Source: Ceraceosorus guamensis (Eukaryota > Basidiomycota > Exobasidiomycetes > Ceraceosorales > Ceraceosoraceae). From it: DNA of 64,000 nucleotides. Positions 589 to 63,473 of the stretch are shown here, piece after piece. The stretch is taken from NCBI RefSeq assembly GCF_003144195.1, contig NW_020290005.1:248001-312000 (forward strand), written 5' to 3'. The position numbers and the translations under genes are program-made. Under the pieces are notes generated by a model. The model was not told where the DNA came from. It made no database searches and saw only the letters and a program-made list of their open reading frames with translations. The first letter of the stretch is position 1. Each line of letters begins with the position of its first letter.

Positions 589-2024
589 ATGGCTACGCGC
601 AAGAAGGTGCTGCTCAAGGTCAGTAAAGAATTGTAAGCAGCGGGAAAGCGTGCGGTTGGGTGCTGTGCAACCTGAGACAGCATCTGGAAGCTCGTCGATT
701 AGTCATGTCCCCTAGTAGGAAAGGGAGACTGGTCCCAATGCCTTGGTCTCCATCTGCCACCTTTTTGCTCATCCTCTCTCCCTTCTTGCCACCTCTCCGT
801 CTGTCTTCGGAACAGGTCATCGTGAGTGGGCTCGAGTCTTGTTCGATGGGAGTGTGCCGCAGCTGAAGCTTCTGCTCCCTCTTTTTGCTCTTGCGGTTGC
901 TTAGATCCTCGGCGATTCTGGTGTGGGCAAAACGTCGCTGATGAATCAATGTGAGTAAGCAAGAGGGAGCTCAAATCGAATTTTGAGACAAGCGGCCAAT
1001 TGGTTGATGGAATGATGGTCATGTGGTCACGTACAGATGTCAACAAGCGCTTTTCGAGCTCTTACAAGGCCACCATTGGAGCCGACTTTCTCACTCGAGA
1101 GGTCTTGGTCGATGATCGATTGGTGACGATGCAGGTGAGCCAATGCGGCCATTGTCCTTGTCGTCAATAGCCAGCTCTGGGGTTGATGAAGACTTCGCTC
1201 ACTTGTTCGTCGCCTGCATCTGTCTGCAACAGCTGTGGGACACGGCCGGGCAAGAACGTTTCCAATCCCTCGGAGTGGCATTCTACAGAGGTGCAGACTG
1301 CTGCGTGCTGGTCTACGATGTCAACTCTGCCAAATCTTTCGAGACTCTGGATAGCTGGAGAGACGAATTCCTGATTCAGGCTGCTCCTCATGATCCTGAA
1401 AACTTCCCATTCGTCGTCCTCGGCAACAAGATCGATGTAGAGGAGAGCAAGAGGATGGTGAGTCCTGTGCGGTGCTGAGCAAGCGGGAGGATAGTGATGT
1501 GCACGAGAGCGGCAGTGGACGTGAAAAGGCTGCAAAGGGACCAAGTTGCAGTTGCCTGGCAAAAAGCAACGATGTCCGTGACGAGCACATCTTCGACGAC
1601 GGGAGTGTCGGGGCTGCACCGCTGCTCTGAGTGGGAGGGTCATCGCCCAGATCATGATTGCGTTGCTGTGATGCCCTGCCACCTCAACTTTCGTGCTGAC
1701 CAACTTGCCTTTCGTCATATCGCCCGCAGGTCTCTCAGAAGCGAGCAATGAACTGGTGCGCTTCCAAAGGAGGTATCCCATATTTCGAGACGAGCTCAAA
1801 GGATGGCATCAATGTAGAGAGCGCTTTCCAGACCATCGCAAAGGTCAGTGTTTCGGTAGACACATCATTCGACTTTCCGAGGAGAGGTGGCAAGGGAAGC
1901 TGACGCCCTTTATGAACCCTTTTAGAATGCTTTGCAACAAGAGGCGGAAGCTGAGCTCTACTCGGAGTATCCCGACCCGATCAGGCTCGATTCTGATGCT
2001 CCGCAATCAGGCTGCAACTGCTAG
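589..2024 (+). CDS. ypt7: Rab GTPase Ypt7 (Rab7), vacuole fusion
   Basis: Rab7-family small GTPase that acts on late endosomes and the vacuole and recruits HOPS for homotypic vacuole fusion. Seven exons: 589-618, 816-821, 905-950, 1037-1134, 1233-1457, 1730-1843 and 1926-2024. They sum to 618 bases, giving 205 residues against about 208 in yeast Ypt7. The start [10 protein letters not shown] matches the family. The P-loop GDSGVGKTS (residues 15-23), switch [20 protein letters not shown]4 GNKID and G5 ETSSK are all intact. The C terminus ends SGCNC, a C-x-C geranylgeranylation signal. Exon 2 is only six bases and supplies the Val-Ile of KVIILGDSG. It is flanked by AG and GTGAGT, and no other arrangement restores this invariant peptide. 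All introns are GT-AG. The gene converges on the Vsb1-like gene with 447 bases between stop codons. Confidence 0.95.
816..821 (+). other. ypt7: 6-base microexon of ypt7
   Basis: The bases GTCATC lie between an acceptor (AACAG) and a donor (GTGAGT). They encode Val-Ile in frame between exon 1, which ends in KVLLK, and exon 3, which starts [10 protein letters not shown]. Rab7 proteins have VI at this position. Without these bases the protein would lose two strand residues before the P-loop, although the frame would be kept. Confidence 0.9.
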
Positions 2025-26231: not shown

Positions 26232-29200
26232 TCAGGGCTTATCTCCATTGTCAGCTTCTTCAATTTTAGCCTCAACCTCAGCGCCGTCACCTGAGGGAGC
26301 GGCAGTGCTCTTCGCGGCAGGAGAGGCGCGTCGCTCAGTGGAGGAGTCGTCCAATTCCCCTTCCTCTGGCGATGGCGCAGAATTTGGCTGAGGAGGTGCG
26401 ACTGATGCCGTGGATGCCACCGCGGGCGGCTTCGCGTCGGGATCCGGATTGCTTGGAGTCGTTCCAGCGGGCCCCGCGTTGCTGCTTGCAGTTGCAGATT
26501 TAATGCCCTCTGCATCCTTTTGGACACGGTCAGCCACCTCCATCGCATCGTCTTCTGCGCCGCCTTCCACATTTCGGGCTCGCTTTTCAGTCACGCGGGG
26601 TGATACGTCTGCTGACCGTGGATCGGTGTCATCGTTTGGCCTTTTACCGAGGATGCTGGAAGCGCGCGCGTTGCTGCCATCGTCAGGAATCGGCGCTGCA
26701 TTCCGCTGGCTCCGAGACGCATCTTGAGCGTCATCTGCAGAATGCAAATGGGCGGCAGGTTGTGCTGACCTCGCTCGTTCGCTCTGCATCGAATCAGCGC
26801 TCAGACCTCCTTTGGCCGGAGGAGAGGCAGTGCGACGTGAGGAAGGATGGTCCAAAGTGGGCGGGCGAGCAGGAAGGCTACTGGAAGCGGATGCGGCGCC
26901 AGCGAGCCCCATCAACGCATCTGCTGCACCATTGTCGTAGTCCTCATCCACACTACGCGAAGCGATCGGAGCTTGCGACCGTTGTGCTGCATGCGAAGCG
27001 CTGAGACCAGCTGCCAGGGGTCTGCTGCCAGATGAGGCGTCAGAACCCGCAGGCGAGCCGCGGTCAGAAGTTGGCGACATCCTCGTCTTGACGCGATCTG
27101 GACTTCGAACACCTCCGCGGCTGCCGCCAAAGGTTGACGCAGGTCGAGAGCTACCCGGCGACTGCGATCGAGAGCTGCCGTTTGCTTTTCGGCGCGAAGG
27201 AGACGGGCCTGGTGCTTCGGTTTTGGGCTTCGCGCTGCGACGACCAGCTTTGCGCTTACTCGCTGAGCCGTGGCCATCACCGAACGGTGTCTCTCGCGTA
27301 GGCTCACCATTGTGCGAGCCAGTGTCCGAGTGACGAGTGGGCTCGGATCGATCGTTGAGGGGATCATAGCGACCGCTGCCGCTGATGATAGGCGGTGGAG
27401 GTGGACCAAACCCGCTTGGGCCTCGGCTATACCGATCACGATCTCTGTCTCTCTCACGCTCTCGCTCTCGGTCATAGGCCGGATCGTATCTCCCGTAAGG
27501 CTGTCTCTCAAACGGAAGAGGTGGCGCTCCTGCAGGTCCGCTCCGTCCGTTGGCATACCCACTATGGCCAGAGTGCTCGTCTGGGTGGCTCCCTCTTGGC
27601 GCTCCGCCGTAGCCACGGCGCGAATGCTCCTCTTGCTCACGATCGCGTGGACCATCGTGTTCGCGCTCTCTGTCATAGGCGTTGTTGCGCCCATTGCCGT
27701 CCCATTGCCGAAGTGGTCCAGGAGGACCTGGTTGATTGAATCCGCGAGGACCGGGCGAAGTACGTTCGTGCTGGAAGCGGTGATGCTGCGGTGGTGAACG
27801 GCCGCTCTCGTTGATAGGAGGCGCATCCATGGGAGCCAGTGTCGCATGACTAGAGGATTTGGTGCCGCGGTCGTCAATGTTGGGAATAGATGGAGGTCGT
27901 CCCCCGCGGAAACCTTGTGGCGGCGAAGGGCTACGCTTAGGTCCTGGCAACTCTCGCATTGGACCGCCATCAGGGCCTGGAAGGCCTTGCGGAGGGAAAG
28001 CGGCAGAAGGCGGTCCATTGCCATTGGCACCGATACGCGAAGGGGGCCCTGGAGGTTGCGCGCCACCCACACTCGCGTACGCGGTGGGATGCACGTCTTG
28101 AGGAATCGGTGCGGATGAGACCTGCTCTCCCTTAGCTTCAGCGTTGCGGAGTAAGTTGAGCCGTTGCTGAATGTGAGGGTTCTCGGGGTCCAACTCGGCC
28201 GCTCGAGCGTAGGCATCGATAGCGTCAGAGATTTGGTTGTTGCAGGACTCGTACAAGCTGCCTAGATCGAACCAAACCTCGGAAATGTAAGGGTTGAGGC
28301 GAATAGCACGCGAGTATGCATCAAGTGCATCGCGGAACTGATTGATCTGGTAGTAGAGCACGCCGATAGAGCACCAGAATGTCGGATTCTTTCCGTCTCG
28401 ATACACAGCCTGCTGGTACGCCTCGTAGGCTTTGTTGTAGTTCTGGCCAGCCATGTAAGCGCGACCGAGCAGGTACCAGCTTTGAGCATCGTTGGCGTCT
28501 GACTCAAGGCTCTTGGTCAAGAATTGAATGGCGCGCTCTTGATTCTGGAATCCCGCACTCGATTGGTGGTAAAGCCATCCAAGCTGCTGCAGGACTTTCG
28601 CGTGGTGGGGATTTTCCGCGAGCACGCGCTCGTACGCGTCCTTTGCAGCGCCAAACTGGACGGGTCGACCAAGAAAAGAAAAGCGTGAGTGGCCAAGTCA
28701 CTGTGCAAGCATTTGGGCAATGGATATGCTCACGTCCTTTTGCTGTTCGTAGACGTGACCGATCTGAAACCAGATGTCAATCTCGGTGAGGGGCCGAGGA
28801 GGGCTAGACAGGATGTAACGGAAGCATTCTAGACTGTGCTGGTACTTGTTCTGCTGCTTGTAGATGATGCCAAGGCGGAAATAAATTTCGTTCGCTTTCT
28901 CGTAATCTGCCATACACACAGTGCACGCGTTGTAAGTAAGGCTGTATGATAGCCACATCGAAACCCTTATCACTCACTGGGATCCATTCGCACGACACTT
29001 GCGAAAGCTTCTTCAGCGTGCTCAAGGCTTCCGTAGCGGTCGTACAGAATGCCAATACCATACCAAAGCTTGGGCTCCTTAGGATTCGGAAGGTGGTACA
29101 GCGCTTGCTGGTACGCAGTGTATGCTTTTTGCAGATCGTCCATCATGAGATAACAGTGACCTGCAGCAGCGGCCGGGATGCAAAGCGTTTTGCCTTCAGC

Positions 29201-60915: not shown

Positions 60916-63473
60916 ATGCCGTCGCGCTCCGATGAGGCGTCGTCAAGTCGCCAGCAGTACGCGTCCACTTCCACCATCTCTTCCCAATCGCCTGGACGAC
61001 GAGCGCTCAAGGTGGTGCTCATCGGCTCAGCAGGCGTAGGTAAGACGGCTTTGAGGGACCACGTGAGTGTCGCTCCTTGTTGTGCGCAATGCTGAAGCCG
61101 GACACATTGACCCAAGGAACGCTCTGCTCCACCCACAAGTGGCATACCAACCGCTTCAACGCTTCTTACAGGGCGACCATTGGCGCTGACTTTGTCACAA
61201 AGCAGATCGACAGACCAGATCCTCCGCCCAGAACGAGGCGGCCAAAGGGAGGCACCATCAGCGTCGCTGTCTGGGATGTGAGTGGTGCAGCAGCACAGCT
61301 TTGGCACACCATTACATCGCACTGATGGACGCGTGTTCCCCCACCGCAGACTGCAGGCCAGGAGCGGTTTCGCTCATTGGGTAGAGCCTTTTACCGAGGT
61401 GCAGATGCCGTCATACTCGCTTACGACGTTACCCGTCCAGAGACGCTATGCGAGACAAAGATCTGGTGGGCGGAGTTCAAAAGCGCCAATGGCTTCCACA
61501 GTAGAGCACCCGCCAAAGGCGCCAAAGGAGCTGGCATGCACCATCAGCGCGCCGAAGATGAGGAGGCCCTGCAAACTTGGTTGAAGACGGTCACGCTGGT
61601 CGCTGTTGGATGCAAAGCAGACCTGTTGAGCTTAGAAAGGGAAGCCGATTCGACTGGTGGGGGACGCAATAGGGCACCAAGCGAAGCGCAGAACTGGTTT
61701 GACGGATTGCTGCGGCAGGATTTGGAAGAGCCAAAAGAAGCAGGCTCAAACAGGAACCACGAGGAGCGCGATACGTCAGAAGCTCAGCACGCAGCCGAGC
61801 CATACGATATGTCTGAGAACAATGTGACGCAAGCAGACAACAGCGAAGATTATGTTGCTGCATCTTCATCCTCTTCCGACAGCGGGCCGACCGCTCGACC
61901 GCCCCTGAGCACGCGCGGAAGTGATCCAAGCGGAAGCCGTCCGAATTCGACGACAACCATACATGCCGAGCCTACCAGCTTAGTTGGCGTCGAGCCTCAG
62001 CAGCCCAGCTCAAAGCAGCAGCTTAATGATGACAAGCCTGCAGACGCGCAGCTTCATGCCAGACGGTCAATCGCATCGATCAATCTCGTTCACGCGGAGA
62101 CGGAGCCCGATCCCGAAAGACCTGCTCCGAATGCCGGCAATTCGCGCATCGTGCACTCACCAGAGGCGGAAGTAGGAGAGCCAGATGAGACGGCAGGCGA
62201 AGGCGATGCGGCTGGCAACGCGGAAACTGTCGAAGCGAGCAGCACCACCGAGGCCGCCCGAAATATTCCGACCAATCAGAAGCGCAAGAACGACACCTTG
62301 TCGATCTCGACCTCCTACGGAATCACACCGCCCGCCACTCGAACAGACGGTCAACGAGCGAAAGTTGCTCGCACGCCCACACGAGTCAGAGGCAGGTACG
62401 ATAGCGCGGCTAGCGTGGCCAGTACCATCGCTGGCGGAGCTAGTCTGTACCACACGCCTAGAGGCAGCACGATGTATTCGTTCAATTCGAGCTCCAGCGA
62501 GGAAAGTCGGCAGCGTGCTGAAGCAGTCGCGCGCACACCTCGTCCTGAACCCGAAGACCAAACCAATGACAGCGGAGATGGGGAGAAGACTCCTCGCGGT
62601 GAAGCTGAAGCAGCGCAAGGCAGCGATCCAAGTGCGTTCGACGTGACCGCTTTGGAGAGAGCATTGCATCAGGCGCACAATGAGCCAGGGCAAGGAGATG
62701 AGGCGCAGCCCTCCGTGAGCGAAGATGAAAACGGCTCTGCCTACTCACAGCAGATCAGACCGGGCCAGCTGGAAGGCGAGCCGATTCCCTTCCCAAGCAC
62801 ACCATCTGCGGACCGAATAGCTGACGTTAGGCGTGCTGCCAGGTCTCGCAAGGGATCCAGCAACGCGGCACGGACCTCTGCGGCCCGAAGCAAGAGCAGA
62901 ATGGGCGGCGACAAATCAAATTTGCAGCCTCCAGCCTTGGAGTTGCCTGCTCGACCCACAACGCTGTACGAGGCACCGCCCGTTTCGGTAGGCTCTGGCT
63001 TTTTGCATCGTGCCGCGGCCGAATCGAGTGGCGCGTCAAACGCACAGGATGCCGGCGCGCATGGAGGTCTTTCTCTGGATGAAGAAAGCGTGAGGAGCGA
63101 ATCTGACTATGATGCTGCTTGCGAGGATGACGAGGAACCCATGGCGCCCACGCAAGGCTTTGTCCTGCACCTCACATCAGCAAAGACGGGGCAAGGCGTG
63201 TCTGGCGTGTTTGAAGAGCTCATCGAGCGAGTGTCTCAGAGGTGGGAGGTGGAGGAGTGGGAAGAGAGACAGGCACAACACTTGAACGGAGGGTTCGGAG
63301 TGGATGTGGATGGCAAGACGAAGGAGAGGAACGTCAAGGGAAAGGGATGGTGGAGGTTCGGCAGAGGACAGCAAAACGTAGAGTTGACGTGGGAGCAGAG
63401 GGAGGAGATTCAGGTTCGCAGAGGCATTCGGATAGCTGCTGGCAAGGAACCGCGAAATTGCTGCGGTACTTGA
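60916..63473 (+). CDS. Rab7-like GTPase with a very long insertion before G5
   Basis: Exons 60916-61062, 61140-61277 and 61350-63473 total 2409 bases, 802 residues, against about 205 for ordinary Rabs. A 30-residue Ser-rich leader precedes [20 protein letters not shown] (P-loop GSAGVGKT), [18 protein letters not shown] (switch I, strongly Rab7-like), [33 protein letters not shown] (switch II), then [10 protein letters not shown] (G4 near residue 180). About 510 residues of disordered, Ser/Glu/Ala-rich sequence follow. The fold resumes with [25 protein letters not shown] (G5 TSAK near 702), more charged sequence and the terminus PRNCCGT, a plausible Rab geranylgeranylation signal of the CCxx kind. 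G4 has Cys where nearly all Ras-family proteins have Asn (NKxD). It is paralogous to ypt7 at the other end of the window. Its cellular role is unknown; a vacuolar or endosomal one is a guess from the switch sequences. Confidence 0.85.

Follow-up and report, generated by a model that had tools for sequence, protein, structure and literature searches.

Small GTPases are seen as compact switches to which effectors bind from the outside. A gene of the basidiomycete Ceraceosorus guamensis raises the question of what a Rab protein becomes when several hundred residues separate its G4 and G5 motifs. The gene lies on the forward strand at 60916–63473 of a 64,000-nucleotide stretch (RefSeq assembly GCF_003144195.1, contig NW_020290005.1, positions 248,001–312,000), which is called the window below and whose coordinates are used throughout. 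Judging from the sequences of its relatives, the long insert is an old trait of a fungal Rab7-like paralogue family and not a one-off, and a conserved short motif often present in it speaks for a docking arm and against a defunct enzyme.

Gene structure and the insert

Two short GT..AG introns divide the gene into three exons (Table 1), and the spliced reading yields one intact protein of 802 amino acids (aa). The G1–G5 motifs and the Rab/Ras fold of the Rab family are present, with the P-loop starting at aa 37, TIGADF at aa 62, WDTAGQE at aa 94, GCKAD at aa 182, TSAKT at aa 704 and CCGT at aa 799; by sequence, the latter provides C-terminal cysteines of the prenylation type. The best sequence matches are led by Ypt7/Rab7 (Ypt7 4phf, E 1e-24). 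An earlier annotation of this DNA made from the letters alone (the original prediction) had called the product a giant Rab7-like GTPase with an altered G4 and a prenylation-like end and had noted that the window also contains a canonical Rab7; all of these features were recovered.

Ceraceosorus is placed in the Exobasidiomycetes (Ustilaginomycotina), and the spliced protein finds its best match in an 802-aa "Ras-related GTPase [Ceraceosorus bombacis]" (P0001), with 96% identity over the G-domain query. Exon by exon the identities are 98, 89, and 92%. The two proteins, both of 802 aa, align gap-free, and they share 29/29 residues in the N-terminal extension, 109/111 from G1 to alpha3, 37/46 in the beta5-G4-alpha4 block, 431/472 in the insert, 38/40 from beta6 to alpha5, and 70/72 in the tail. 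No second copy of the full giant Rab was found in the 23.8-Mb genome of C. guamensis, where the next-best matches fall on other Rab-type loci.

GCKAD and LHLTSAK are 514 residues apart, which corresponds to a G4–G5 gap of 512 by the rule common to all proteins compared; the ordinary gap is 24–47 residues (100 pooled proteins, see below). The original figure of about 510 extra residues between G4 and G5 stands as a distance but not as the size of the insertion, since alpha4 is still present 3' of G4 (from aa 206) and the insertion proper, in the alpha4-beta6 loop, comprises 472 codons (aa ~219–690). It is rich in Ala, Ser, Glu, and Pro. Compared with chytrid relatives, the protein also has two smaller insertions, one of ~26 residues in the G3–G4 interval and one of ~8 residues in the interval from the P-loop to G3.

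A gene-model artefact, with most of 61650–63120 intronic and a short real protein, would be another explanation of this architecture. However, the 472 codons contain no in-frame stop, whereas the other two frames contain 11 and 26, and none of 2000 simulated inserts was stop-free in either of two first-order Markov models. The stop-free frame, the gap-free alignment to C. bombacis with its exon-by-exon match, and an in-frame YHTP motif common to more than 100 relatives, some of them from metagenomes, make an intronic insert extremely improbable, and it was set aside.

A fold assembled from the two halves, which the original prediction had proposed to check, is found in the AlphaFold2 model of the relative P0261: the G domain is built from both halves, and the insert is left disordered (predicted local distance difference test, pLDDT, ~50). 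By sequence and model, a Rab G domain of normal make-up is split in two by a long, presumably disordered alpha4-beta6 arm, which, to go by the modelled fold, would be held away from the switches.

The giant Rab family and its phylogeny

Relatives were collected by three homology searches (the best 120 of 511, 1712, and 529 matches, respectively, with Agaricomycetes favoured), and the resulting pool of 320 proteins, 321 with the window protein, was sorted by motif rules into 178 proteins with a long G4–G5 gap (>60), 100 with an ordinary gap, and 43 unclassified ones (26 had more than one G3 motif, 8 lacked a standard G3, 5 a G5 match, 3 a P-loop match, and 1 G4). Analyses of the insert used 175 of the 178 long-gap members (P0174, P0217, and P0290, with gaps of 70–83, were dropped), and gap lengths and C-termini were counted in 114 of 116 aligned members. 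Inserts were divided into 148 "basidiomycete-type" and 27 "early-fungal" ones, for which we grouped the metagenome proteins ourselves. Among the matches listed, the named long-gap members belong to the Agaricomycetes, Ustilaginomycetes (several annotated as "related to YPT7"), Exobasidiomycetes, Pucciniomycotina, and chytrids, taxon classes that we assume for all but Ceraceosorus. Tremellomycetes, rusts, Wallemia, and Malassezia are not among the names in the best-120 listings, which is not claimed as an absence.

The insertion site is identical throughout the 116 aligned members, with gap lengths of 115–813 in the 114 counted. A long insert at the same site is thus common to basidiomycetes and chytrids, and the notion of an isolated, strongly derived paralogue had to be abandoned, while the conservation of the site, another check that had been proposed, was borne out. 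The family is also marked by the residue after GKT-x-L, a position outside the selection rules: it is Arg in 176 of the 178 long-gap proteins compared with 3 of the 100 ordinary-gap proteins, 91 of which have Met. These three are two Apophysomyces proteins (Mucoromycota) and a Protomyces fusion protein. The family Arg was likewise found in 10 of the 17 unclassified proteins outside the group with several G3 motifs.

Clear orthologues with a normal gap, NKxD, and no insert are present in Apophysomyces and Jimgerdemannia (Mucoromycota). Such orthologues had been named as evidence that would speak against the original prediction; they do exist in this phylum, but most pooled relatives have the insert. 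The fusion protein of the ascomycete Protomyces (P0086) contains a Rab domain with the family Arg, a gap of 41, and no insert, and is possibly an ascomycete orthologue.

A quick tree of 100 rows followed the species groups. In a careful tree of 83 of these rows, from which long or redundant rows had been removed, 62 family rows (including three without insert) were separated from 21 canonical or other Rab7-type rows with a branch support of 100/97, and 44 basidiomycete-type rows formed one group (100/99); the G4 column was included in the trees. The family did not group with the canonical Rab7, the Rab7 subfamily proper, although Ypt7/Rab7 are the best matches of the window protein. The history of the insert can be explained by one gain and a loss in the Mucoromycota or by two gains, with two changes either way.

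Klopper et al. (2012; PMC3425129, cited like the other PMC sources for its available part) described a conserved fungal set as either a Rab7 duplicate or Rab9 and preferred Rab9. Membership of the giant family in a fungal Rab9 subfamily would follow this preference, yet it is quite unlikely: the Rab9 markers Phe41, His42, and Arg77 (named in PMC2693434 and mapped by us) occur in 0/116 members each, and no Rab9 chain is among the best 60 sequence matches listed, which are led by Ypt7/Rab7. Rab9 was set aside on these marker residues; the trees contained no Rab9 sequence.

A further Rab of the C. guamensis genome (L001, at C1 ~27957–28334 and downstream), which from its motifs we take to be a Rab5-like GTPase, has GSKLD instead of NKxD at G4, ~100 extra residues in alpha4-beta6, and a CC end. 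It represents a second Rab lineage of this genome with the architecture of the giant Rab.

A conserved motif in the insert

Most basidiomycete-type inserts share a single-copy motif with the consensus S-[ILV]-[YF]-H-T-P-[SR]-x-S. YHTP occurs in 111 of the 175 inserts and never twice in one insert, compared with 0.19 expected from composition, and in none of the 100 ordinary-gap proteins. A profile built on the 111 YHTP inserts, with every shuffled or reversed insert as control, scored above control in 129/175 inserts, namely in 129/148 of the basidiomycete type and 0/27 early-fungal ones; motif-bearing members come from all three large basidiomycete subphyla. Some of the motif-less basidiomycete-type inserts and one weak match may contain the motif in decayed form, for example RYDS...SVYYSI or IYHDA. 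On the window DNA the motif pattern has one occurrence, at 62448 (0.03 expected).

When the window insert was scanned in 12-residue windows against the 146 other basidiomycete-type inserts, aa 452–475 found matches in up to 98/146 (best control column, 6). Lesser stretches above control were the Ser-rich aa 265–277 and 268–281 (up to 20 and 26/146), aa 442–453 (16), and aa 568–584 (14). All 34 residues around the motif (aa 442–475) are identical in C. bombacis. The motif could be phosphorylated, as is suggested by its proline-directed Thr next to a run of serines. A second motif, TITPSLF, is above control in 75/175 inserts, the window protein not being among them.

Could the insert be low-complexity sequence that expanded neutrally in a permissive surface loop and has no role other than being tolerated? 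Its very variable length, its biased composition, and its lack in the Mucoromycota orthologues would fit, as would the observations that, apart from the motif, relatives share no more than short stretches of the window insert and that early-fungal inserts are without the motif. The single-copy YHTP in three subphyla and the constant insertion site argue against it, and we regard neutral expansion as unlikely.

The G4 cysteine and nucleotide binding

The first G4 residue of the 178 long-gap members is Asn in 151, Cys in 20, Ser in 3, Ala in 2, and Thr in 2, and Asn in 100/100 ordinary-gap proteins; with 151 members keeping Asn, the Cys is not tied to the insert. On the tree, loss of the G4 Asn took three changes without outgroups and four with an outgroup included. 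Among the tree rows, Cys was found in 6/6 named Exobasidiomycetes and 8/8 unnamed proteins grouping with them, Asn in 9/9 Ustilaginomycetes, and Asn, Cys, Ser, Ala, or Thr in Microbotryomycetes. A protein recorded under the name of the fern Adiantum nelumboides (P0029) resembles the unnamed Cys-G4 giant Rabs and is perhaps a fungal contamination of a plant assembly. The G4 Cys is a clade feature and probably a tolerated change, which may tune exchange but would not abolish GTP binding.

In the window protein GKT, the switch I Thr, DTAGQ, the G4 Lys and Asp, the guanine-stacking Phe (aa 55), and SAK are all intact, so that the loss of catalytic or phosphate-binding residues that defines a pseudo-GTPase is not observed. 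GKT, DTAGQ with its catalytic Gln, the G4 Lys and Asp, and the G5 Ser are present in 116/116 aligned members, partly by construction, because the rules by which most members were selected demand GK, DT-GQ, and K-x-D. A rule-free look at the 17 unclassified proteins revealed the same residues in most of them, the exceptions being P0287 (DTCGQ), P0289 (DTADQ), P0295 (broken P-loop), and P0234 (no G4); the catalytic Gln was found in 10/10 of those with the family Arg (in P0149 and P0229 in the later piece of a split gene model).

Cysteine at G4 has a precedent in Rnd3, whose sequence (PDB 1M7B) reads VGCKSDL at this site. This structure is listed with GTP (PMC11594714), Rnds are described as GTP-loaded (PMC13236570), and NKXD is missing in 43.3% of guanine-binding complexes (PMC11594714). 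With the phosphate, Mg, and hydrolysis residues intact and Rnd3 binding GTP with the same GCKxD, the pseudo-GTPase or use of another nucleotide envisaged in the original prediction is not favoured and was set aside.

In its broader form, the idea that loss of the G4 Asn weakens guanine binding and leads to spontaneous exchange or to no switching at all has several observations behind it. The Ypt7 variant N125I, which by our count on the sequences affects the G4 Asn, is the nucleotide-free form used for structures with guanine nucleotide exchange factors (GEFs; PMC12383261, PMC5216073). Non-standard G5 motifs are commoner in members with non-Asn G4 (7/24) than in those with Asn (3/92; Fisher p 0.0006, kinship ignored). 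Two Rhodotorula members (P0238, P0242) combine a G4 Ala with Tyr at the guanine-stacking Phe, which may mean fast exchange, as RhoU and RhoV, with Tyr at this place, exchange fast (PMC13236570), and the Microbotryum gene model P0234 lacks G4, perhaps through a prediction error. The intact residues of the window protein, the catalytic Gln of all aligned members, and GTP-bound Rnd3 nevertheless make a fast-cycling or pseudo-GTPase improbable.

Proposed activation, membrane binding and mechanism

Tri-longin GEFs depend on a switch I pair of Tyr with Lys or Arg (PMC12383261, PMC5216073). In the giant family the Tyr is present in 116/116 and Lys or Arg in 114/116 members, with YK in 10/12 early-fungal, YR in 98/104 basidiomycete, and YK in 17/17 canonical rows. 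Arg serves in place of Lys38 in Rab32/38, and BLOC-3 is described as metazoan-only (PMC12383261/PMC5216073). Because of this restriction of BLOC-3 and the kept pair, Mon1-Ccz1 is the likely GEF, a conclusion to which the change to Arg is to a degree opposed. The switch I pair and the double-Cys end together suggest a membrane-bound switch of the Rab7 pathway with a disordered arm.

We consider it slightly more probable than not that the window protein belongs to an old family of fungal paralogues and is a catalytically intact, prenylated, Mon1-Ccz1-activated GTPase of the Rab7 group into which a docking arm is built. Its tail cysteines would be geranylgeranylated, and it would be loaded by the fungal tri-longin GEF Mon1-Ccz1 and reside on endosome or vacuole membranes. 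The arm would bring a partner to that membrane via the YHTP motif, whose action might be controlled by proline-directed phosphorylation of the YHTP Thr.

Several observations weigh against this proposal. The motif is not above control in 19/148 basidiomycete-type and 27/27 early-fungal inserts and hence is not essential to the family, and in the P0261 model the motif block has a low-confidence pLDDT of 52 and is not shown folded. Lys38 of switch I, which is used by Mon1-Ccz1, is Arg in the window protein and 98/104 basidiomycete members, and the Ypt7 exchange K38A lowers catalytic efficiency by an order of magnitude (PMC12383261/PMC5216073). The nucleotide-free state of Ypt7 N125I points in the same direction. 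Finally, the Ceraceosorus pair has a stem length of 0.91, compared with an end branch of 0.072 for the window Rab7, and the beta5-G4-alpha4 block is the least kept one in the comparison with C. bombacis; both could mean relaxed constraint.

A more far-reaching proposal, which is possible but doubtful, is that basidiomycetes possess a Rab with a built-in effector arm (~150–800 disordered residues in the alpha4-beta6 loop with a deeply conserved, phospho-switchable YHTP for docking), uniting switch and tether or adaptor in one protein, and that the guanine-binding loops of Exobasidiomycetes and Microbotryomycetes have drifted to faster, GEF-light exchange. A Rab family that has kept a long arm inside the G domain, with one motif conserved in much of the basidiomycetes, offers a direct route to study how much insertion the Rab fold can accommodate, what the arm recruits, and where in endosome or vacuole traffic a second fungal Rab7 acts. 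The natural series of Asn, Cys, Ser, Thr, and Ala at G4 in one family is a ready test of the weight of that residue in guanine binding.

Feature coordinates

Table 1. Features of the giant Rab gene and the canonical Rab7 gene in the window.
Feature	Position	Strand	Remarks
Exon 1	60916–61062	+	aa 1–49; N-terminal extension and G1 P-loop GSAGVGKT (61024–61047); matches P0001 aa 1–50 with 98% identity
Intron 1	61063–61139	+	77 nucleotides, GT..AG
Exon 2	61140–61277	+	aa 50–95; switch I segment 61167–61193; WD of G3 61272–61277
Intron 2	61278–61349	+	72 nucleotides, GT..AG
Exon 3	61350–63473	+	aa 96–802 and stop; rest of G3, G4, alpha4, insert, beta6, G5, alpha5, tail
G4 GCKAD	61608–61622	+	aa 182–186; Cys183 codon 61611–61613
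Alpha4 segment 3' of G4	61674–61718	+	aa 204–218; columns filled in 115–116/116 aligned members; helix 142–152 in the P0261 AlphaFold2 model
Insert, alpha4-beta6 loop	61719–63134	+	aa ~219–690; presumably disordered; equivalent region of the relative P0261 has pLDDT ~50
Conserved motif region of the insert	62388–62489	+	aa 442–475; YHTP at 62448–62459
Beta6, G5, start of alpha5	63156–63269	+	aa 698–735; TSAK 63174–63185
C-terminal CCGT	63459–63470	+	prenylation-type double Cys; CC or CXC end in 110/114 family members
Canonical Rab7 gene	589–2024	+	for comparison

Both Rab genes of the window have an intron after the P-loop (951–1036 and 61063–61139), at LMNQ^Y in phase 1 and LRDH^W in phase 0, one nucleotide apart by our own reading. 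The G5 of the canonical Rab7 (1790–1801) reads TSSK instead of TSAK, as does that of some giant paralogues.

Comparison with known systems

A literature search, with most subscription papers beyond its reach, found no description of the insert or the YHTP motif. The 50 rows listed by VIA-align contained no non-GTPase row, an absence that proves nothing.

Big Ras GTPases (TBRG-1; PMC8146680) resemble the giant Rab in being fungal, 3–4 times the usual size, and poorly conserved at G4. However, no G4 was found in the 10 sequences of that paper, and they carry Trp for Ala in G5, neither of which applies to the Rab7-like window protein with its CKxD and TSAK; the assignment was rejected on the presence of GCKAD and TSAK. 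Rnd3/RhoE (PDB 1M7B) shares the G4 context (VGCKSDL versus VGCKADL in the window protein) and indicates that Cys is compatible with bound GTP, but it is a constitutively GTP-loaded member of the Rho family (PMC13236570), whereas the window protein keeps the catalytic Gln, and it has no long insert in the 106-residue aligned stretch.

With canonical Rab7/Ypt7 the giant Rab shares the best sequence matches, switch I and II, the double-Cys end, and the switch I Tyr-Lys/Arg pair. It differs by its position on the other side of the 100/97 branch, the family Arg instead of Met after GKT-x-L, the alpha4-beta6 arm, and, in the window protein, the G4 Cys. PMC2693434 notes that five fungi have two Rab7s (citing Pereira-Leal) and mentions a Batrachochytrium copy that is very divergent. 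The closest described counterpart is the Rab7/Rab9-like set of Klopper et al. (2012; PMC3425129), a duplicated second Rab7-like protein found in many fungi, basal lineages among them. Its description, as far as available, mentions no insert, motif, or G4 change and prefers Rab9, the marker residues of which are absent in the giant family, but this set and the giant Rabs probably are the same family.
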